In this document: one piece after another, positions 51,348-61,853 of the stretch
How the letters are laid out: each line of letters begins with the position of its first letter
Numbering within the stretch: the stretch's first letter is position 1
NCBI GenBank assembly: GCA_012729315.1
Contig: JAAYDI010000183.1
Span: 1 to 64,000 of the forward strand
Length of the DNA stretch: 64,000 nt
DNA from: Planctomycetaceae bacterium
GTDB lineage: Bacteria > Planctomycetota > Planctomycetia > Pirellulales > Pirellulaceae
Reading direction: 5' to 3'
Notes under the pieces: model-generated
Seen by the model: the letters and a program-made list of their open reading frames with translations, nothing else
Told to the model about the DNA's origin: nothing
Databases searched by the model: none
Made by a program: the position numbers and the translations under genes

Positions 51348-51469
51348 AGCGGCACTAATTATCACACTAAGTTGTGATGTTAGAAGGTGTTTGAACGATT
51401 GTCCGTCGCAGCACCCGCTCCCCTCCGGAGTGGGTCGTTTTCTTGACGCTCCGCGTGGGACTATCGGAC

Positions 51470-52759
51470 ATGGCCGAGTTGGTATTGCAGGGCGTGTCCA
51501 AGATGTTCGGCGGGTCGGTGATCGCGGTCCAGGACTTGAATCTGGAGGTTCGAGATCAGGAACTGGTCGTGTTGGTCGGTCCCAGCGGTTGCGGCAAGAC
51601 GACGACGCTGCGGCTGATCGCCGGTCTCGAACGTCCCGATCAGGGTATGATCTGGATAGACGGCCGGCCGGTGAATCGGGTGGCACCGCGAGATCGTAAC
51701 ATTGCCATGGTGTTCCAGCACAGTGTCTTGTACCCGCACATGACGGTGTTCAAGAACATGGCGGTAGGACTGACGTGGCGCGGCGATGGTGACAGGATCC
51801 GGCGTGGCTGGATGCGTTGGCGGCAGCCGGCGGCAGCCGAGCGGCGGGCGGCCCAGCGGCGGGCGATTGCCCGGCAGGTGCAGGAGGCGGCGCGGGTCCT
51901 CGGCATCGAGCACCTGTTGGAACGGTGGCCTCGGCAGTTGTCCGGGGGCGAGTGCCAACGAGTTGCTTTGGGCCGAGCCATCGTCCGCCAACCGGCGGCG
52001 TTTTTGTTGGACGAACCGTTATCACATCTCGACGCCCAGTTACGGGTCGAGATGCGACGTGAGATCAGACGTTTGCGTCAGCGTGTACGAGGTTGCCTGG
52101 TGTACGTCACGCACGACCAGGCGGAAGCGTTGGCGCTGGGCGACCGAGTTGTAGTAATGCATCGCGGGCGGATTCAGCAGACGGGACCGCCGCGGGAGGT
52201 GTACGACCAACCTGCCAACGTGTTCGTGGCCGGGTTCCTCGGCGCACCGGGCATGAACCTGTTGCCCGGCCGCTGGATGGACACGGGGGACCGCCCCTGC
52301 TTTGCCAGTGGCGGCCTGAGAGTGTCGCTGCCGGCGAGCGTCTGGGGGTGTCGCCCGGCGCGGGAGGACGGCGGCGTGACGCTGGGCATCCGCCCCGAAC
52401 ACCTTTGGCTGGAAGTGAGAAACGAGGTGAGAAACGACGGTTCAGGACGTGCCGGCGTCGACCGGACCGCGCAGGTGGTGGGATCCGGTCGCGTGGTCAT
52501 GACCGAACTGTGCGGCCCGATGGTCCTGGCCACGGTGGCTGTGGACGGTGGGCTCGACTGCGACGGATCTTGCCGTGGTCGAACCACCAGTGGCTCAGCG
52601 CAGCGGCCGGAAATAGTGGTGGCGCTGTCACCAGGACAGACGGTGGAGGCAGGACACGAGGTCTCGGTGGGATTGGACTCATCGCGGATCCAATTGTTTG
52701 ATGCACGCACAGGTGCGAACCTGCGGGCGATGCGTCCCAGGGACAAAAAACCGGAGTGA
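51470..52759 (+). CDS. ABC transporter ATPase, MalK/UgpC type, orphan
   Basis: A 429-residue ATPase: Walker A GPSGCGKTT, Q-loop FQHSVLYPHM, signature LSGGECQRVALGRA, Walker B FLLDEPLSHLD and H-loop VTHDQAEAL. An Arg/Trp-rich insertion (WMRWRQPAAAERRAAQRRA) lies between the Q-loop and signature. The C-terminal 150 residues are a TOBE-like domain with LGIRPEHLWLEV. It should energise sugar or glycerol-phosphate import, but no permease or binding protein is nearby, so it must serve distant transporters. It starts at the ATG 51470. Confidence 0.9.
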   Translation: MAELVLQGVSKMFGGSVIAVQDLNLEVRDQELVVLVGPSGCGKTTTLRLIAGLERPDQGMIWIDGRPVNRVAPRDRNIAMVFQHSVLYPHMTVFKNMAVGLTWRGDGDRIRRGWMRWRQPAAAERRAAQRRAIARQVQEAARVLGIEHLLERWPRQLSGGECQRVALGRAIVRQPAAFLLDEPLSHLDAQLRVEMRREIRRLRQRVRGCLVYVTHDQAEALALGDRVVVMHRGRIQQTGPPREVYDQPANVFVAGFLGAPGMNLLPGRWMDTGDRPCFASGGLRVSLPASVWGCRPAREDGGVTLGIRPEHLWLEVRNEVRNDGSGRAGVDRTAQVVGSGRVVMTELCGPMVLATVAVDGGLDCDGSCRGRTTSGSAQRPEIVVALSPGQTVEAGHEVSVGLDSSRIQLFDARTGANLRAMRPRDKKPE

Positions 52760-52804
52760 CGGTCCAGGGTGGGCGGCGAGCCCCATACAGAAAACTAGGT
52801 CACC

Positions 52805-54139
52805 ATGAATCCAAGTGAGTTGTTGCGCATCGTCGACTCGTTGCACCGGGACAAGAACATCGACCCGGAGATCGTTTTCCAGGCCATCGAAGCGGCGCTG
52901 GTGACCGCGGCGAGGCGGCAGTATGGCGAGGAATCGAACATCGTCGTGCGGATCGCCCGTGAAAACGGCGCGATCGATGCGTCGTGCAATGGCGAGCCGC
53001 TGGATATCGGCCGGATCGGGGCTCAGACGGCCAAGCAGGTGATCATCCAGAAGATCCGCGAAGCCGAGCGCGACGCGTTGATCGAAGAGTACCAGGAACA
53101 GATCGGTCAGATGGTCTCCGGCGTGATCCAACGATCGGAGGGGGGGGCGGCCACGGTGTCGCTCGGCAGCGTCGAGGCCATCCTGCCGCGGAGCGAACAG
53201 ATCCCGGGCGAGTCGCACCATCCGAACGAACGAATCCGCGCCGTGATCTTCGAGGTCAAGCCGCAGGGCACTCGCGTCAAGGTGGTGCTCAGCCGCACCC
53301 GCCCGCAACTGGTACAGCGCCTGTTCGAACAGGAGATCCCCGAGATCGCCGAAGGGGTCATCAAGATCAACGCCATGGCGCGCGAGCCGGGCTACCGCAG
53401 CAAAGTGGCGGTCAGCAGCAGCGATCAGCGGGTGGACTGCGTGGGGGCCTGTGTCGGCGTCCGTGGCAACCGCATCAAGAACATCGTCGATGAACTGGCC
53501 GGGGAACGGATCGACATCGTGCGGTGGAGCGACGACCCGGAAGTACTGATTCCCAATGCGCTCCAGCCGGCCGAGGTCGACCAGGTGCTGCTGTGCGACA
53601 TGATCGGCCGAGCCATCGTGCTGGTGCGCGAGGACCAGTTGTCGCTGGCCATCGGCCGGCGGGGGCAGAACGTGCGGCTGGCCAGCAAACTGTGCGGCTG
53701 GGACATCGAGATAATGACGGCCGAGGAACTCGAAGAGCAGATCGAGCGGGCCGTGGGCGGCTTCAGCAAACTGGAAGGGGTCAACGAAGAGTTGGCGCAA
53801 GCCCTGGTAGAACAGGGTTATTTGTCTTACGATGATCTGTCCGTCATCGAACCAGACGCGCTGATGGAAATGGGCGGCCTGACGGCGGAGCAGATGGACC
53901 GGATCGTGGAGCAGGCCGAACAGTGGGCGGAAGAGGCTGAGCAGGCGGCGGCGGTCGAGCGGCGGCGGCAACGCGAATTGCAGGTCTCCGAGGAGAATGC
54001 GGCACCCGGGGTCGCGTCGCCTGAGGAGGACGAGACGTCCCCCGCCCAGACGCTGCCGGAGTCCGTTCCGGGCGACACGGAGCTACATCGCAGCGAGAAT
54101 CCGGCTGCCGGGTCCGGCGCCGACGTCGCGCCGGGCTAG
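52805..54139 (+). CDS. nusA: Transcription termination/antitermination protein NusA
   Basis: A 444-residue RNA polymerase-binding protein. Domains: N-terminal ([20 protein letters not shown]), S1 ([18 protein letters not shown]), two KH domains ([20 protein letters not shown] and [19 protein letters not shown]), then a helix-hairpin-helix segment and an acidic C-terminal tail from about 375. It starts the nusA-infB-rbfA translation/transcription cluster and lies 45 bases after the ABC ATPase. Confidence 0.96.
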
Positions 54140-54262: not shown

Positions 54263-57211
54263 GTGCCCATTCGTATTTACGCGTTAGCAAAAGAGCTGCA
54301 AATCGACAGCAAGGAGCTAGTGGATATCTGCACGAAGGCGGGTATCTCGGGCAAAGGTTCTGCGCTGGCCAGTCTCAACGACGATGAAGTGGTCAAGATC
54401 AAGGCGTTCCTGGCCAGCTCCAGCCCGGCGCAAGCGGGTGGCAGCATGAGCGACGCGGGCCGCGCCAGCACCGGGATCAAGGTCGGCCGCGGCGGTGGAC
54501 TGTTCCAGCGGCATCGCGTGGGAGACGCCCCTGCGCCGGCAGCGCCGTTCAAACGCGAGGACTACATCAGTCCCAGCGGCCTGGGCGGTAAGATCAAGGT
54601 CATCACGACCCGCCGCGCCACACCGAAGCAGCCGTCGGCAGTACCGGAACCGGCGACGGAACTGCCCTCCCCGGCCCAGCCGCCTGCCGTGCCCTCTGAC
54701 GCGCCCCCCGCGGTTCCCCCCGTGGTTCCCTCTGAGAGCGAGCCGGCCGCGCCCGCAGCTCCGGCGCCGGCTCCGACTGAGATCGCCGCCGAGACGCCCG
54801 CTGTAACACCACCGCCAACCGCGATCCAGCGCGAGCCACCTTTGCTACGCCCCTTCGAACGCGCCGACTCCAGTTCCATCAAGATCATTGGCGGACCGAA
54901 GAAACGAGCCGCCGGCGGCGAACGGAAACCCAGACGTCGCACGCCCGTGATCAATGTGGCACCGGCACCGATGCCGGAGGCCAAACAGCCATCCCTGACG
55001 GCGAAGCCGGACGAGCCCAAGACGCAGAAGCCCGAACTCCGACTGCCCAAGGAGGCGATGACGATCCGCAAGGGTCAGCGGCGTCCTCCGCTCGAACACC
55101 TGACCGAAAAGAAGCCGAAAAAGGAATCCAAACGGCCATCGCACACGCCCGCATTCGACGACGACAGCGAGGGGGCGGCAGCGCGGCGGGGCGGATCCGG
55201 CATTGGCGCCCGGCGCGGCGGCAAAGCCGACAAGCAGCTGGAACCGTCGGACGCCGGGATGGTCGGCATGGCCAGTGCCCGAGCCGATCGCAAGGCGCGG
55301 CGGGCGACCCGCAAAGTCAAGTCCACTACCATGATCAACCCGCGGGAGATGGAAGTCCAGGCACCGCGCAAGCGCAGGACGCTGATCCACAAGGGTACCA
55401 ACACCGCCGCTCCTCGGAAAGGAAAAGTCGCTCTGGAACTTCCCTGTACTGTCCGCAGTTTCTCGGAGGCCACCGGTGTGAGCGCCATACAGGTCCAGAA
55501 GGTGCTCATGGGCATGGGACTCATGCTCACGATCAACTCCGTGATCAATGACGAATATGTCGAAGTGCTGGCCGCCGAGCTGGGTGTGGATCTGGAGTTC
55601 AAAGCACAAGAGACGCTGGAAGACGCGTTGATCACCAAGATCCACGAGACTACAGACGCGTCCGAAGAACTCCAGCCGCGTCCCCCGGTCGTCACGTTCC
55701 TCGGACACGTCGACCACGGCAAGACCTCTTTGCTCGACTACCTGATCGGCACCAATGTGGTCGCCGGCGAGGCTGGAGGGATCACGCAGCACATCCGCGC
55801 CTACCAGATCAAGAAGGGGGACCGCGCGATCGCCTTTGTCGACACCCCGGGACACGAAGCCTTTACGGAAATGCGTGCCCGCGGAGCACAGGTGACCGAC
55901 ATCGCCGTGCTGGTCATCGCGGCGGATGACGGCATCATGCCGCAGACGGAAGAGGCGATCAGTCACGCCAAGGCGGCCGAAATCCCCATCGTCGTGGCCC
56001 TCAACAAGATCGATCTCCCGGGGACCGACACCACCCGCATTCTCACGCAGATGACCGAACACGGGCTGACGCCCAGCCAGTGGGGCGGCGAGACGGAAGT
56101 CGTGCCGACCAGCGCGCTGACGGGACAAGGGATGGACGAACTGCTCGAGACGATCCTGACGATCGCCGACATGAACGAGTACCAGGCCAATCCGAACCGC
56201 CCGGCGCTGGGTTCGTGCCTGGAGGCGGAGCAGGAAGGGGGGCGCGGCGTGATCGCCAAGCTGATCGTCAAGAACGGCACGCTGCGGGTCGGGGACGTGG
56301 TCCTCTGCGGCTCCGCCTTCGGCCGTGTGAAAGCGATGTACGACACGCTCCGCCGAGGCGTCCGCGTCAAGGCGGCCGGGCCGTCCATGCCGGTCAATGT
56401 CACCGGTTTCGACGCGGCGCCGGAAGCCGGTGACCCGTTCTATGTGCTGCCGGATATCGCGCAAGCGCGGGCCATTGCCGACCAGCGCCATTCGCAGTCC
56501 CGCCAGCGGTCGCTGGCCGGCACGTCGGTCAAGGTGTCGTTCGACGAGTTCCAGCGGCGGCTGGCGGCCGGGCGGCTGAGCGACGCGACAGAAGAACGCG
56601 TGCTGCTGAACCTGATCATCCGCGCCGACGTGCGGGGCTCGATCGAAGCCATCCAGAAGGAACTCGGCAAGCTGGAGCATCCGGAGGTGCAGATCAAGGT
56701 GCTGCAGGCATCCGTCGGCGGCGTCACCGTGGCAGACGTCACGCTGGCCCATGCCTCGCAGGCCGTCATCATCGGTTTCAACGTGATCCCGGACGAGGCG
56801 GCCCGCACAATGGCCGAGGAACGACAGGTCGAGATCCGCCGCTACGACGTCATCTACAAGGTGACCGACGACATCCGAGCGCTGCTGGAAGGGAAGCTCA
56901 AACCCGAAGAGAAGATCGTCGAACTCGGCCAGGCGCTGGTCAAGCAGGTCTTCGCCATCAGCCGCGTCGGGGCCATCGCCGGATGCTACGTGGTGCGCGG
57001 CGCCATCGAACGCGGCTGCCGCATCCGCGTCAACCGCGACGGCCGCACGATCGGCGACTACGAACTGGAGTCGCTGCGGCGGGAGAAGGACGACGTGAAG
57101 GAAGTAAGCCGCGGCCTGGAATGCGGCATCAAACTGTCCGGCTTCAATGACGTCAAAAAGGACGACGTGCTGGAAGCGTACAAGATCGAGGAAGTGGCCC
57201 GAACACTGTAA
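54263..57211 (+). CDS. infB: Translation initiation factor IF-2
   Basis: A 982-residue GTPase that brings initiator tRNA to the ribosome. The start is GTG at 54263, with AGGAGG seven bases upstream. Residues 1-50 are the IF2N helical domain; 60-400 are a Pro/Ala/Lys/Arg-rich low-complexity linker, longer than in E. coli. The G domain has [19 protein letters not shown] and NKIDLP. Domains II to IV follow, ending EEVARTL. It lies 123 bases after nusA. Confidence 0.97.
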
Positions 57212-57284: not shown

Positions 57285-57755
57285 ATGACATCACGACGCG
57301 TTCTCAAAGCTGCCGAGGCGATCCGGGAAGTGGTCAGCATGGCCATCCTGACCGAGCTGCGCGATCCGCGGATTGCCGACGTGACCGTCACGCTCGTCGA
57401 GGTTTCGCCCGACATGCGGCACGCCAAGATCCACGTCTCGGTGATGGGCGACGAGGCGAAACAGAAGCTCACCCTCCGCGGCCTGCAGAACGCCGCTGGT
57501 TTCCTGCAGCAGAAAATCGCCCGCCGTATCGACACCCGCTACACTCCCCGCGTGCGGTTCGTGCTCGATCAAGGTGTCAAACGCTCCATCGAAGTCTGCC
57601 GCATCCTGAACGAAGTGCTGCCGCGGCCGCCACTGGTCGACGAGGACGAGGACCTGTCCGATTCCGAGCTGGACGGAGTCGACACCGCCGAAACGCTCGA
57701 CGATCTCTGGAACAACCCGGATCCGCCCGAACACGATGCCAACGAGAGCCGTTGA
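57285..57755 (+). CDS. rbfA: Ribosome-binding factor A
   Basis: A 156-residue small-subunit maturation factor. The KH-like core runs from SRRVLKAAEAIREVVSMAI through LRDPRIADVTVTLVEVSPDM and YTPRVRFVLDQGVKRSIEV. The C-terminal 35 residues are acidic, a common extension. The start at 57285 is preferred to upstream in-frame codons because conserved sequence begins there. It is 73 bases after infB and 2 bases before the next gene. Confidence 0.94.
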   Translation: MTSRRVLKAAEAIREVVSMAILTELRDPRIADVTVTLVEVSPDMRHAKIHVSVMGDEAKQKLTLRGLQNAAGFLQQKIARRIDTRYTPRVRFVLDQGVKRSIEVCRILNEVLPRPPLVDEDEDLSDSELDGVDTAETLDDLWNNPDPPEHDANESR

Positions 57756-57757
57756 GT

Positions 57758-58660
57758 ATGAGCACCCCCAACCGCGCATCGAAAATCACCAAAATGCACA
57801 AGGTGCTGAAGAAGCACTACAAACCCTACGTTGTTGCCGATCGGCCCCTCCTCGAACACCTGCTGTACGCCTGCTGCCTGCAGGCCGCCACGCACGAGGC
57901 GGCGGATGAGGCCTTTGCCAAGCTGCAACAGGCATACTACGACTGGAACGAAGTCCGAGTCACCACGATTTCGGAACTGGCCGAAGTGATGAATTGCCTG
58001 CCACAGCCTGCCGAGACCGCGTCGCGACTCAAGCGGACTCTGCAATCGGTCTTCGAGGCCTACTACTCGTTCGACCTGGACGGGCTGAAGAAGGACAACA
58101 TCGGGAAGGCGGTCAAACAGCTGGAACGACTCAACGGCATCACCGACTTTACGCTGGCGTTCGTCGTCCAGAACGGCCTGGGTGGGCACGCGATTGCGGT
58201 GAGCGACGGGGCGTTTGAGGTCCTGCGTGTGCTCGGCATCGTGTCCGACGACGAAGTGGCCAAACGCCGCGTGCCGGGCTTGGAACGCGCGATCCCCAAG
58301 AGCAAAGGGGCCGAATTCGGTGCTCTGTTGCACCAGGCGGGCGCCGATTACGTGGCCGCCCCCTTCTCGTCACGGGTCCGGGCCGTGCTGCTGGAGATCG
58401 CCCCCGACGCTAAGCAGCGTTTCCCGAAACGGGTGGGCAAGAAGGGCACGGACGAGACCGCGCCAGCAGCGGCACCGCCAGAAAAAGACGCAGACAAGCC
58501 GCGGGAAGACGCCGACAAGAAAGACGAACCCAAGAAGCCCCCCCGAAAGAAAGCGGCATCCAAGCTCGAATCGGGCAAGAATAAGAAGAAGCAGCTCCCT
58601 GAGACTTCCAATCCCAAGAAGTCCCCCACCAAGAAGCTGTCGAAGCGGAAGCCGCGGTAG
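57758..58660 (+). CDS. Degenerate endonuclease III-fold protein with Lys-rich tail
   Basis: A 300-residue protein. Residues 15-200 follow the helix-hairpin-helix glycosylase fold of endonuclease III: HLLYACCLQAATHEAADEAF, VTTISELAEVMN, then LNGITDFTLAFVVQNGLGGH and AIAVSDGAFEVLRVLG. The catalytic Lys (LPGVGRKTA in Nth) is replaced (F131 at that place) and the catalytic Asp of VDTH is displaced (VSDG). No iron-sulfur Cys cluster follows. The C-terminal 75 residues are rich in Lys and Pro (KKDEPKKPPRKKAAS), like a histone-H1 tail. It likely binds DNA without glycosylase activity; this is inference. It starts 2 bases after rbfA. Confidence 0.8.
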   Translation: MSTPNRASKITKMHKVLKKHYKPYVVADRPLLEHLLYACCLQAATHEAADEAFAKLQQAYYDWNEVRVTTISELAEVMNCLPQPAETASRLKRTLQSVFEAYYSFDLDGLKKDNIGKAVKQLERLNGITDFTLAFVVQNGLGGHAIAVSDGAFEVLRVLGIVSDDEVAKRRVPGLERAIPKSKGAEFGALLHQAGADYVAAPFSSRVRAVLLEIAPDAKQRFPKRVGKKGTDETAPAAAPPEKDADKPREDADKKDEPKKPPRKKAASKLESGKNKKKQLPETSNPKKSPTKKLSKRKPR

Positions 58661-58690
58661 GTGGTTGGGCGGTTAAAATGGAGAACTGCC

Positions 58691-61051
58691 ATGCGCCCTC
58701 TCGCCGCTGGGTTGTTGAACACCTCCAGGACGGATGTCCCGCCGTCACACACCCGACAGGGGACCGATTGTCGGCAGGCGCGATCCCACCGCCGCCGACG
58801 TCCGGCGGATCGGAGTGGCAGCGGCTCCCGCGGCCTGCCGCGTCTGGTGGCCGCCCTGCTGCTGGCCATCGCCACTCCCGGCAGTTTCTGTCAGGCTCAG
58901 CTGCTGGACGATCCGCCACGCCCACTGGCTCCGGAGGCAGCGCTCACGGAACAGCAGCAAGATCACGCGGAAGCGGTGGCCTTGTACACGCATGGCCGGG
59001 TACTGTTGCAGCGTGGTGTGCAGCAGGGGGACGATGTCGATGCCCAAAACCCAGTGATCGCCGAGGCGCTGCGGTGCATGCAGCGTGCGTGGCGGTATGA
59101 TCCCCAGCTCGTCTCCATCATGGAGGACATCTTTCCGCTGGCCTACGCGCTCAATCGCAGCGGCGAAGCCACGCGCTACGCGATGCTCGCAGCCCAACGG
59201 GAAGAGCTCCCGACGGAATTGCTCCAGCGTGTCGCGATGGTGCTGACCGACCAGGGGGAGTTCGAGCAGGCTTTGGCGCTGTACCGCAAGATCGCGGCGC
59301 GCAGCGATGGACCACCGGACGCGATCACCCAGTTCGAGCTGGGGCGGCTGGCGCTGCTGGCCGGCCAGTTCGAGGAGTCCGCCGCGGCGTTCGCGGTGAC
59401 GCGTGACGCGCTCGAGGGGCGATCCGCGGAGGTGTCGTTGTCGGAGGACGAACGGGCCCGCCTGTTGCGCAATCCGGACGTCATCTACGCCCTGCTGGGC
59501 GAGAGTTTCCTGCGCGCCCAACGGCTGGACGAGGCGGAGGCCATGTTCCTCCGGGCGGACGAGGCCAAGCCCAATCCGGCAGCGCTGGGATTGCGGTTGG
59601 CGCTGATCGAGAAGGAACGGGACAACCGCGTGGAGGCCCTGCAGCAGCTCGACCAGTACTTCACGTCGAAGATCACGTCGGCCGGGATGGCCCCCTACCG
59701 GCTGCTGGAGGAACTGCTGACCGAACCCGACGCCGACGGGGCAGCGGCAGATCCCGCGCCGCCACCCGCAGCCGCACTGCTGGACCGGCTTCGCGCCCTG
59801 GCGGCCGACGACCCGCACAACATGTTCCTGGGCTACTACCTGGCAGATCGCCTGCGGGCCGCCGCGCGCGACGAAGAGGCCATCGCCCAGTACCGGGCCA
59901 TGCTGGCCGTGGAATCGACCGCCGACGGGTACCAGGGGCTGGTCGAGATCTTCACGGACCGGCAGGAATGTGCCCCGTTGCTCGAGCAGCTGGGGGCGGT
60001 CGTCGCACAAACCGGCTCGCTGACGCCGCTGGGCGGCAGCCTCGATCGTCTGGTCGCGGACGCCAGCCTGCGCAGCCGGCTGGCGGACCTTGCACTGGCC
60101 CAACACGCCGATCCCCAGGCGACTCCGGCGCCGGGCGGGTTGATGGCGATGGCCCTGCTGGAAGCCAAGGCGGGCAACGTGGAGCAGGCAGAGCGGTTCT
60201 GGCAGGAAGCGCTGCACAAGCCCGCACCGGTGGCGGGCCAGTTCTCGGTGAACTACGCGTTTCTGTTGATGGACCAGAACGAGCCGGTCCGCATGGCCCA
60301 GGCGCTGCAGCGGACGCTCGATTTGAAGCTGTTGCCCGAGCAGACGGCGGAGTTGCACTTCTACCTGTCCGGCGCCTGGGCGCTGGCCAAGGATTTTGAC
60401 AAAGCGCTGGCGGCAGCGCGCGAGGCTGCCAAGCTGGAGCCCAACGCGGTGCACATGGTCGCCCGCGAAGCCTGGGTCCAGTACCAGGCCCGGCGGCTGG
60501 ACGAAGCCGAACAGGCCTACCGGGCGATCGTCGAGCGGTTCGACGCCGATCGCGACTCGGACGAGACGCGGGCAGCGCTCCGCGACGTCCGGTTCGTCCT
60601 GTCGGCCATCCACGTGGAACAGAACCGGCTGGCGGACGCCGAGGAGTGGCTGCAGCAGGTACTCGACGAGTTCCCGGAGGACATTGGGGCGTACAATGAC
60701 CTGGGCTACCTGTGGTGCGACCAGGGCAAACACCTGGAGCGCTCCCTGGACATGGTCCAGAGGGCGGTGCAGGCCGAGCCCGACAATGTGGCGTACCGGG
60801 ACAGTCTCGGCTGGGCGCTGTTTCGGCTCGGCCGGTATGCGGAAGCGGTGGTGGAACTGCAGCGCGCTGCCGCGACAGACCAGGCGGATGGCGTCATCCT
60901 GGATCACCTGGGGGATGCCTGCCTGAAACTCAATCAGCTGCCGTCTGCATTGGATGCCTGGCATAAGGCCGCAGCGGCTTTCGAACGGCAGGACGATGCC
61001 AGACGGCTGGAACAGGTACGGGACAAAATCGGACAGCACGCTCCGCAGTAA
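58691..61051 (+). CDS. Large TPR-repeat protein
   Basis: A 786-residue protein from the ATG at 58691, preceded by GGAGA. The first 55 residues are Arg-rich and then hydrophobic (LPRLVAALLLAIATPGSFCQA), suggesting a signal anchor after a basic stretch. The rest is TPR-like helices, with clear repeats such as EQALALYRKIAARSD, RLDEAEQAYRAIVER and GAYNDLGYLWCDQGKHLERS near the end. It is probably periplasmic and serves as a scaffold. It lies 30 bases after the Lys-tailed protein and 43 before yebC. Confidence 0.85.
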   Translation: MRPLAAGLLNTSRTDVPPSHTRQGTDCRQARSHRRRRPADRSGSGSRGLPRLVAALLLAIATPGSFCQAQLLDDPPRPLAPEAALTEQQQDHAEAVALYTHGRVLLQRGVQQGDDVDAQNPVIAEALRCMQRAWRYDPQLVSIMEDIFPLAYALNRSGEATRYAMLAAQREELPTELLQRVAMVLTDQGEFEQALALYRKIAARSDGPPDAITQFELGRLALLAGQFEESAAAFAVTRDALEGRSAEVSLSEDERARLLRNPDVIYALLGESFLRAQRLDEAEAMFLRADEAKPNPAALGLRLALIEKERDNRVEALQQLDQYFTSKITSAGMAPYRLLEELLTEPDADGAAADPAPPPAAALLDRLRALAADDPHNMFLGYYLADRLRAAARDEEAIAQYRAMLAVESTADGYQGLVEIFTDRQECAPLLEQLGAVVAQTGSLTPLGGSLDRLVADASLRSRLADLALAQHADPQATPAPGGLMAMALLEAKAGNVEQAERFWQEALHKPAPVAGQFSVNYAFLLMDQNEPVRMAQALQRTLDLKLLPEQTAELHFYLSGAWALAKDFDKALAAAREAAKLEPNAVHMVAREAWVQYQARRLDEAEQAYRAIVERFDADRDSDETRAALRDVRFVLSAIHVEQNRLADAEEWLQQVLDEFPEDIGAYNDLGYLWCDQGKHLERSLDMVQRAVQAEPDNVAYRDSLGWALFRLGRYAEAVVELQRAAATDQADGVILDHLGDACLKLNQLPSALDAWHKAAAAFERQDDARRLEQVRDKIGQHAPQ

Positions 61052-61094: not shown

Positions 61095-61853
61095 ATGGCA
61101 GGCCACTCTCACTGGGCAGGAATCAAACACAAGAAAGCGCTGGTGGACAACAAGCGCGGGAAGTTGTGGAGCAAGCTATCCAAAGCGATTATCATCGCGG
61201 CGAAGCTGGGAGGCGGCGATCCGGCCGCCAACGTGCGGCTCCGCACGGCCATCCTGGACGCCAAAGCCGGTAGCATGCCCAAGGACACGATCGAACGTGC
61301 GATCAAGAAGGGCACCGGCGAACTCGACGGTGGCAACATCGAGGAGGTTCTGTACGAAGGATACGGTGCCGGCGGGGTGGCCGTCCTGTGCGAAATCATG
61401 ACGGACAACCGCAATCGTACGGCCCCGGAAATCCGCAAGATCTTCGATGTCCACAACGGCAAGCTCGGCAGCACCAACTGCGTCGCCTGGATGTTCGAAC
61501 GCAAAGGGTTGTTCGTCGTCCCGGTGGCGAATACCACTGAGGAGCAGCTGATGGAAGTCGCGCTCGAAGCCGGAGCCGACGATGTCAAGGAAGCGGGTGA
61601 CAGCTTCGAAGTGACGTGCGACCCCGAGAACTATGCGTCGGTCGGCGATGCCCTGGAAAAGGCAGAGATCGCCATCAACGCCAAGATGGTCACCCGCATT
61701 CCGATGACCACCGTCGACCTGCAGCTGGAGGATGCCCGCAAGGTGATCAAGCTGCTCGAAGCGCTTGATGACCATGACGATGTCCAGAACGTGTCGTCCA
61801 ACTTCAGCGTGTCGGACGAGGTCATGGCCGCCATGGAGGCGGCAGACAGCTGA
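61095..61853 (+). CDS. YebC/PmpR-family transcriptional regulator
   Basis: A 252-residue protein beginning MAGHSHWAGIKHKKALVDNK, the family signature (usually HSKWxNIKHRK). Other marks are SMPKDTIERAIKKGTGE, EEVLYEGYGAGGVAVLCE and DNRNRTAPEIRKIF. The family includes DNA-binding regulators and, more recently recognised, factors that relieve ribosome stalling. It ends the plus-strand cluster and is convergent with the haem lipoprotein gene. Confidence 0.95.
   Translation: MAGHSHWAGIKHKKALVDNKRGKLWSKLSKAIIIAAKLGGGDPAANVRLRTAILDAKAGSMPKDTIERAIKKGTGELDGGNIEEVLYEGYGAGGVAVLCEIMTDNRNRTAPEIRKIFDVHNGKLGSTNCVAWMFERKGLFVVPVANTTEEQLMEVALEAGADDVKEAGDSFEVTCDPENYASVGDALEKAEIAINAKMVTRIPMTTVDLQLEDARKVIKLLEALDDHDDVQNVSSNFSVSDEVMAAMEAADS

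Follow-up and report, generated by a model that had tools for sequence, protein, structure and literature searches.

A degenerate endonuclease III-fold protein encoded beside rbfA and other translation genes in Planctomycetota

Within the HhH-GPD superfamily, the catalytic Lys is not required by monofunctional members. Among the endonuclease III (EndoIII) homologs of D. radiodurans, DrEndoIII1 acts chiefly as a monofunctional glycosylase, EndoIII activity of DrEndoIII3 has so far gone undetected, and the homologs bind undamaged DNA, according to the accessible part of PMC10523315. Sis-HhH-GPD of Saccharolobus islandicus, as described in the available portion of PMC11754123, possesses no catalytic Lys and carries Ser at the Asp position, and is nevertheless an active alkyl-base glycosylase, acting through Glu134. 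On the side of ribosome biogenesis, 30S assembly is described as involving RimM, Era, and RbfA at an early stage; RimM consists of two beta-barrel domains, and loss of rimM is not rescued by overexpression of Era (PMC9032327, accessible part). A large survey of ribosome biogenesis reports rimM and rimP as conserved in >90% of non-CPR bacteria (PMC12641178); its searched text contains no word with the stem 'planctomycet'. The legend of a review figure records era as present in some Planctomycetota and absent in others (PMC10582724).

Here, we describe a gene in a window of 64,000 nucleotides, the whole stretch of DNA analyzed, from a Planctomycetaceae bacterium. It lies at 57758..58660 on the plus strand and encodes a protein of 300 amino acids. 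Its ATG at 57758 follows the rbfA stop codon (57753-57755) after 2 bases, in agreement with the operon arrangement given in the original prediction. The upstream rbfA gene itself (57285..57755, plus strand) was recognized by TIGR00082 with 88.8 bits at G000:C174:57291-57617. The gene order on the plus strand is nusA (52805..54139), infB (54263..57211), rbfA, the EndoIII-like gene, a gene for a TPR protein (58661..61051), and yebC (61095..61853). Of these, nusA, infB, and yebC were identified from sequence and synteny; the TPR protein was named by eye, and its coordinates are open reading frame limits, so that the real start may lie a few codons further down. An ABC transporter ATPase gene at 51443-52804 precedes nusA, in place of rimP, which usually stands ahead of nusA in E. 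coli. A literature search, which did not extend to bioRxiv preprints or to the majority of subscription papers, returned no paper that we recognized as treating this gene. As far as sequence and structure model go, it is settled that the product has an EndoIII fold but lacks the catalytic residues and that its wider family is encoded mostly beside translation genes. A non-enzymatic role in translation is likely, and 30S assembly together with RbfA is our best guess.

The AlphaFold model, based on 80 sequences, is all-helical and has pLDDT values of 96-98 for residues 11-220 and of 54-61 from residue 231 on. The folded core, residues 1-226 (57758..58435, plus strand), forms the two helical lobes of the HhH-GPD fold. 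EndoIII structures ranked first for this model in comparisons with the PDB by both Foldseek and VIA-align, which bears out the EndoIII-like fold originally proposed. Foldseek placed D. radiodurans EndoIII-1 at an E value of 4.6e-7, and the best VIA match was D. radiodurans EndoIII-3 (4uob; Z 18.6, rmsd 4.0, 223 aligned residues), followed by canonical EndoIII (1orn; Z 16.9, rmsd 4.0, 211 aligned) and D. radiodurans EndoIII-1 (Z 16.1, rmsd 5.3, 219 aligned). Sequence comparisons led to the same group of proteins. NF053634, the model for the monofunctional DNA glycosylase DR2438, matched the window protein with an E value of 1.3e-6 and 28.1 bits, below its cut-off of 400 bits, and TIGR01083 (nth) did so with an E value of 0.016 and 14.9 bits, below its cut-off of 211.7 bits. 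Phmmer retrieved D. radiodurans EndoIII-1 from the PDB chains at an E value of 8.7e-4, and a profile built on 20 relatives found EndoIII-1 chains at 7.4e-10. A distant family member (L111) matched NF053634 at 3.7e-25, and distant members, judged by their sequences, bridge the gap between the window protein and EndoIII. The EndoIII fold and the descent of the window protein from the EndoIII branch are thus well supported. Matches to the Pfam models ARM_FBXO47 (E value 0.0022) and Rubi_NSP_C lay under the cut-offs and were taken as chance.

D. radiodurans EndoIII-1 (DR2438; NF053634; structures 4unf, 8a5f, and 8a5c) belongs to the nearest named sequence relatives and shares the core fold. However, in the window protein the catalytic Lys and Asp are replaced, the Fe-S loop is missing, and a Lys-rich tail is added. 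The two-lobed helical HhH-GPD fold is likewise common to the window protein and canonical Nth (TIGR01083), of which the same genome encodes a distinct true copy (L131) with the motifs GVGRKTA and VVDTH, four Cys residues, and a TIGR01083 score of 261.5 bits. In the alignment with this Nth, the window protein has Phe131 (58148..58150, plus strand) in the column of the catalytic Lys and Ser149 (58202..58204, plus strand) in the column of the catalytic Asp, and the alignment with D. radiodurans EndoIII-1 gave the same register for both. The Fe-S cysteine pattern C-x6-C-x2-C-x5-C is absent from the window protein, whose only Cys residues are at positions 39, 40, and 80. Replacement of the catalytic residues and lack of an Fe-S cluster had both been anticipated in the original prediction.

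These features were followed through the family in three sets of sequences. In the order-level set of 80 sequences, the column of the catalytic Lys contains Phe (76), Tyr (3), or Ser (1) and never Lys, and the Asp column varies between Asp (35), Asn (24), Ser (16), Cys (4), and Gly (1); the second Gly of the hairpin (position 129) is replaced by Thr (64), Ser (13), or Asn (3). In 74 members from the order and class together, the Lys column shows 71 Phe, 2 Tyr, and one gap, and the Asp column 51 Asp, 11 Asn, 6 Ser, 3 Gly, 2 Cys, and one gap. The third set comprised 80 distant members from the same phylum but outside the class, taken from protein-similarity matches and chosen by score and family spread. 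A variety of residues occupies their Lys column (Gly 13, Ala 9, Tyr 8, His 8, Phe 7, Trp 7, Ser 7, Glu 6, Asp 5, and further ones, with Lys in one), and Asp is retained in the Asp column of 27. The Fe-S cysteines were found in 42 of the 80 distant members and in 0/74 members of order and class. The catalytic-Lys pattern GxGxK[TA] was absent from the 80 distant cores, and a looser version, applied to whole open reading frames plus tails, occurred in 3/80 distant and 1/74 order and class members. Taken together, the pattern of residues and cysteines across the family looks like a stepwise decay from a glycosylase.

We infer that the window protein is catalytically inactive, and go no further than inference because Sis-HhH-GPD acts through a Glu although it resembles the window protein in having no Lys and in the Ser at the Asp position. 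This likeness was drawn from the published description, and the Lys column of the window protein is occupied by Phe. Some family members could be active, since Asp is kept in those 51 of 74 order and class members and the Lys column of the distant set includes the six Glu and the single Lys. It is conceivable, though quite unlikely, that the protein is an atypical glycosylase or a damage sensor that is still active. The example of Sis-HhH-GPD, the mostly monofunctional character of DrEndoIII1, the retained Asp, and the Fe-S cysteines of many distant members all speak for such an activity. However, the Lys position is occupied by Phe or Tyr in the order and class, with no acid, the Asp position drifts between five residues inside one order, and the hairpin Gly has mostly become Thr or Ser. 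Moreover, the best VIA match is to DrEndoIII3, the homolog reported without detectable EndoIII activity so far (PMC10523315, accessible part), the genome already possesses a canonical Nth and a MutY-like protein, and most distant members adjoin translation genes, which canonical nth does not.

A match was present in 60/60 genomes searched within the order, including the genome of the window, which is more than chance; 80 loci were kept as relatives of 446 confirmed. Family membership was judged from the fetched sequences, as the profile also recognizes catalytic paralogs. Profile E values were rejected as proof of membership: profile A4 gives 181 bits to such paralogs in two relatives (L089 and L090) and 56 bits to true Nth, and the 294/294 profile matches are therefore no count of the family. 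These DR2438-like paralogs (L089:3936-4628, plus strand; L090:1615-2349, minus strand) have Lys, Asp, and the Fe-S cysteines intact and are the closest active-looking kin of the degenerate family found here. A 99/95 branch of a careful 57-row tree splits 5 catalytic from 52 degenerate sequences, and a quick tree of 74 rows gave the same split with a support of 99. The family is a group of Planctomycetota proteins, set apart from its catalytic relatives and kept in many members of the phylum. This does not agree with the earlier suggestion of a protein peculiar to this lineage, as many families of the phylum besides this one have degenerate relatives, and 42/80 distant members even keep the Fe-S cysteines.

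Apart from the lost active site, the family has conserved features of its own. All 80 order-level sequences share, without exception, the residues D62, N64, E65, R67, V68, E73, L95, F105, Q138, G143, H144, G174, E176, R177, and K181. Five of them form the signature D62-W-N-E-V-R-V68 (57941..57961, plus strand), of which D62, N64, R67, and V68 are still conserved to >=90% in a phylum-wide alignment of 50 rows. The motif D-x-N-[E/D]-x-R-[V/I/L] was found in 71/80 distant and 71/74 order and class members, the version ending in V alone (D-x-N-[E/D]-x-R-V) in 62/80 and 71/74, and the version with D, S, N, or G allowed at the start in 75/80 and 72/74, respectively. The corresponding residues of the two catalytic paralogs are TWDGVRR and DWDAVRR; thus, N64, E65, and V68 look like traits of the family.

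The tail of the window protein, residues 227-300 (58436..58657, plus strand), matches the Lys/Pro-rich extension of about 75 residues noticed at the outset. It comprises about 74 residues, is predicted to be disordered, and has a pI of about 10.1 and a charge of about +13. Tails measured in 69 order-level sequences are 27-173 amino acids long with a median pI of 10.8, and in 52 of the 80 distant members at least 25% of the last 40 residues are Lys or Arg. The window protein ends in K-P-R (58649..58657, plus strand). KPR or KPK forms the C terminus in 73/80 order-level sequences, and the longer C-terminal peptide [K/R]-x-K-P-R/K is present in 72/80; the tail is thus not merely generic. Among the seven sequences ending otherwise, four run off the contig, one stops at residue 223, and two end in KRKK. 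In 72 relatives with the KPR/KPK end, each of the four Pro codons occurs, as do five of the Arg codons, which indicates that the constraint acts on the protein. The DNA pattern for K-x-K-P-R-stop occurs twice in the same genome, which equals its frequency in the reversed control and gives no hint of a second carrier of this peptide.

Such a basic, disordered tail on a core derived from DNA-binding enzymes raises the possibility of a nucleoid or chromatin protein, whose HhH-GPD core would bind DNA without cutting it while the Lys-rich tail condenses it, comparable to histone H1-like bacterial proteins. The core pI of the window protein of about 9.0 and the binding of undamaged DNA by the DrEndoIII homologs (PMC10523315, accessible part) fit this possibility, and an H1-like model and HC2 both match the tail of a distant member (L129), under their cut-offs. 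However, the window protein itself (P0001) matched no histone H1-like or HC1/HC2 model in Pfam or NCBIfam with E values up to 10 and HMMER filters on, and the cores of the 80 order-level sequences are not strongly basic (median pI 7.8, range 6.0-9.4). Furthermore, the tail varies in length while its last residues are mostly fixed, which is more reminiscent of a tethered recognition peptide than of bulk charge, and the neighbors of distant members are mostly translation genes. We therefore consider a nucleoid function unlikely. The histone-like half of the earlier idea of a DNA- or rRNA-binding architectural protein is less favored than its ribosome/RNA half, to which the neighborhoods with rbfA, rpsP, and yebC point.

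The conservation of the gene next to rbfA across planctomycetes, left as a check by the original prediction, was found in all 74 order and class loci fetched. In each of them rbfA lies upstream on the same strand, at a distance within 500 bp in 73 and of 511 bp in one. Within the same distance of 500 bp, the 80 distant members have rpsP upstream in 29 cases, rbfA upstream in 17, and yebC downstream in 17, and 62/80 have at least one of the three, one of them with both rbfA and yebC. The remaining 18 have none of these genes within 500 bp, with rpsP or yebC farther away in some. In a control of 30 canonical nth loci from the phylum with flanks of up to 1.5 kb, both of full length in 24, neither rbfA, rpsP, yebC, infB, nusA, ffh, nor prfA was found. 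Among 20 further rbfA regions, mostly from genomes with weaker profile matches, a family member directly followed rbfA in 3 only (L283-L285), all of family f23. In these three loci rbfA, the gene for the degenerate protein, and yebC stand in a row.

When mapped on the trees, the three neighbor labels require at least 6 changes in the careful tree and 7 in the quick tree. Relocation from one translation operon to another thus seems to have occurred several times, the gene remaining in the company of translation genes. Such a shared neighborhood can mean co-expression instead of a common function. In many distant members (L113, L129, and others) the gene comes after ffh-rpsP. The locus L113 has the order ffh-rpsP-degenerate gene-maf-rpmE-prfA, in which maf and rpmE (L31) were named by eye. 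We considered whether the gene occupies the place of rimM in E. coli, where the operon order is rpsP-rimM-trmD-rplS. This was rejected, as maf, rpmE, and prfA come next in L113 and the rpsP side alone agrees.

The gene order of L113 and the downstream yebC of 17/80 distant members would also fit a translation-linked factor outside 30S assembly, for instance a protein acting together with YebC or with release factor 1, or a regulator of its operon that binds tRNA or mRNA. We regard this as clearly improbable, considering that rbfA and rpsP, both small-subunit genes, are the commoner neighbors, one or the other lying upstream within 500 bp in 46/80 distant members.

A survey of assembly factors showed that the sampled Planctomycetota are short of those acting on the 30S subunit, with RimM nearly absent and RimP and full-length Era rare. 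RimM was detected in 1/294 phylum genomes with TIGR02273 and in 0/149 with PF01782, and 10/10 bacterial controls were positive with either model. The sole match in the 294 genomes (L271; G156:C21:452-736) is situated near the start of contig C21 in a genome of 86% completeness. RimP (PF02576) was matched in 11/99 genomes, in 10 of them over the cut-off. For Era (TIGR00436), all 99 genomes gave a match, which was over the cut-off in 74 by the tally of the tool; by reading of the listing, a single match spanning the whole model (188-289 bits) occurs in 8/99, the next best single match has about 91 bits, and many others consist of two matches in one frame. Most of these other matches probably derive from double GTPases such as Der. 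RbfA exceeded its cut-off in 95/99 genomes, and RsgA did so in 71/99, being below the cut-off or missing in 28/99. The genome of the window gave no match for RimM or RimP and only Era matches of 72-78 bits, and it contains RbfA and RsgA.

RimM was probably lost early. A straight replacement of RimM by the degenerate protein was marked down on the evidence of family f62 (15 genomes), whose profile scores reach the level of Nth only, with E values of 1e-14 to 1e-20. In three regions read from this family (L272-L274), no member was found beside rbfA. The family also has no RimM, and full-length Era was present in 3/3 of its genomes tested. As f62 thus appears to have neither RimM nor, as far as seen, the degenerate protein, the latter is no strict requirement for life without RimM. 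We also rejected a straight exchange with Era, since a fetched family member and full-length Era occur together in five genomes (G064, G065, G117, G120, and G143).

The explanation we prefer, which we judge to be about evenly poised between right and wrong, is that the window protein is a non-catalytic descendant of an EndoIII-type glycosylase recruited to translation in Planctomycetota, most likely to 30S assembly. Base excision would have been lost from the two-lobed helical core with the change of the active-site Lys to an aromatic residue. The core might then dock on a structured nucleic acid, with rRNA or pre-30S particles as the probable target, via a conserved face built around D-x-N-E-x-R-V, with the long flexible Lys-rich tail raising affinity and the conserved C-terminal K-P-R peptide serving as a specific anchor. 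Its partner in action would be RbfA, encoded alongside, in a phylum that has no RimM and, for the most part, neither RimP nor Era. Binding of RNA or the ribosome, docking through this face, and the functions of the tail and in assembly are all putative. With RimM, RimP, Era, and RbfA, the likeness concerns the proposed role only and comes from the gene adjoining rbfA or rpsP; by description of their folds these proteins differ from the all-helical window protein, RimM being built of beta-barrels. It is tempting to speculate further that this dead glycosylase became a phylum-specific assembly factor, which took on part of the small-subunit rRNA folding otherwise carried out by RimM, RimP, and Era, which are missing here, with the former DNA-binding fold now binding RNA and the Lys-rich tether with its Lys-Pro-Arg end as an anchor; this bolder version we consider doubtful, and its RimM part is weakened by family f62.

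If the preferred explanation is true, much of a bacterial phylum has turned a base-excision DNA repair fold into a translation factor. This would help to account for the building of 30S subunits in Planctomycetota, which have no RimM and mostly no RimP or Era. For annotation, it is of note that family members may be labeled endonuclease III even though the catalytic residues are lost. The MutY-like protein encoded in the same genome (L132:925-2091, minus strand) reads ILEANTVRLL at a site where canonical MutY has Asp-Gly-Asn, and its catalytic acid is possibly Glu.
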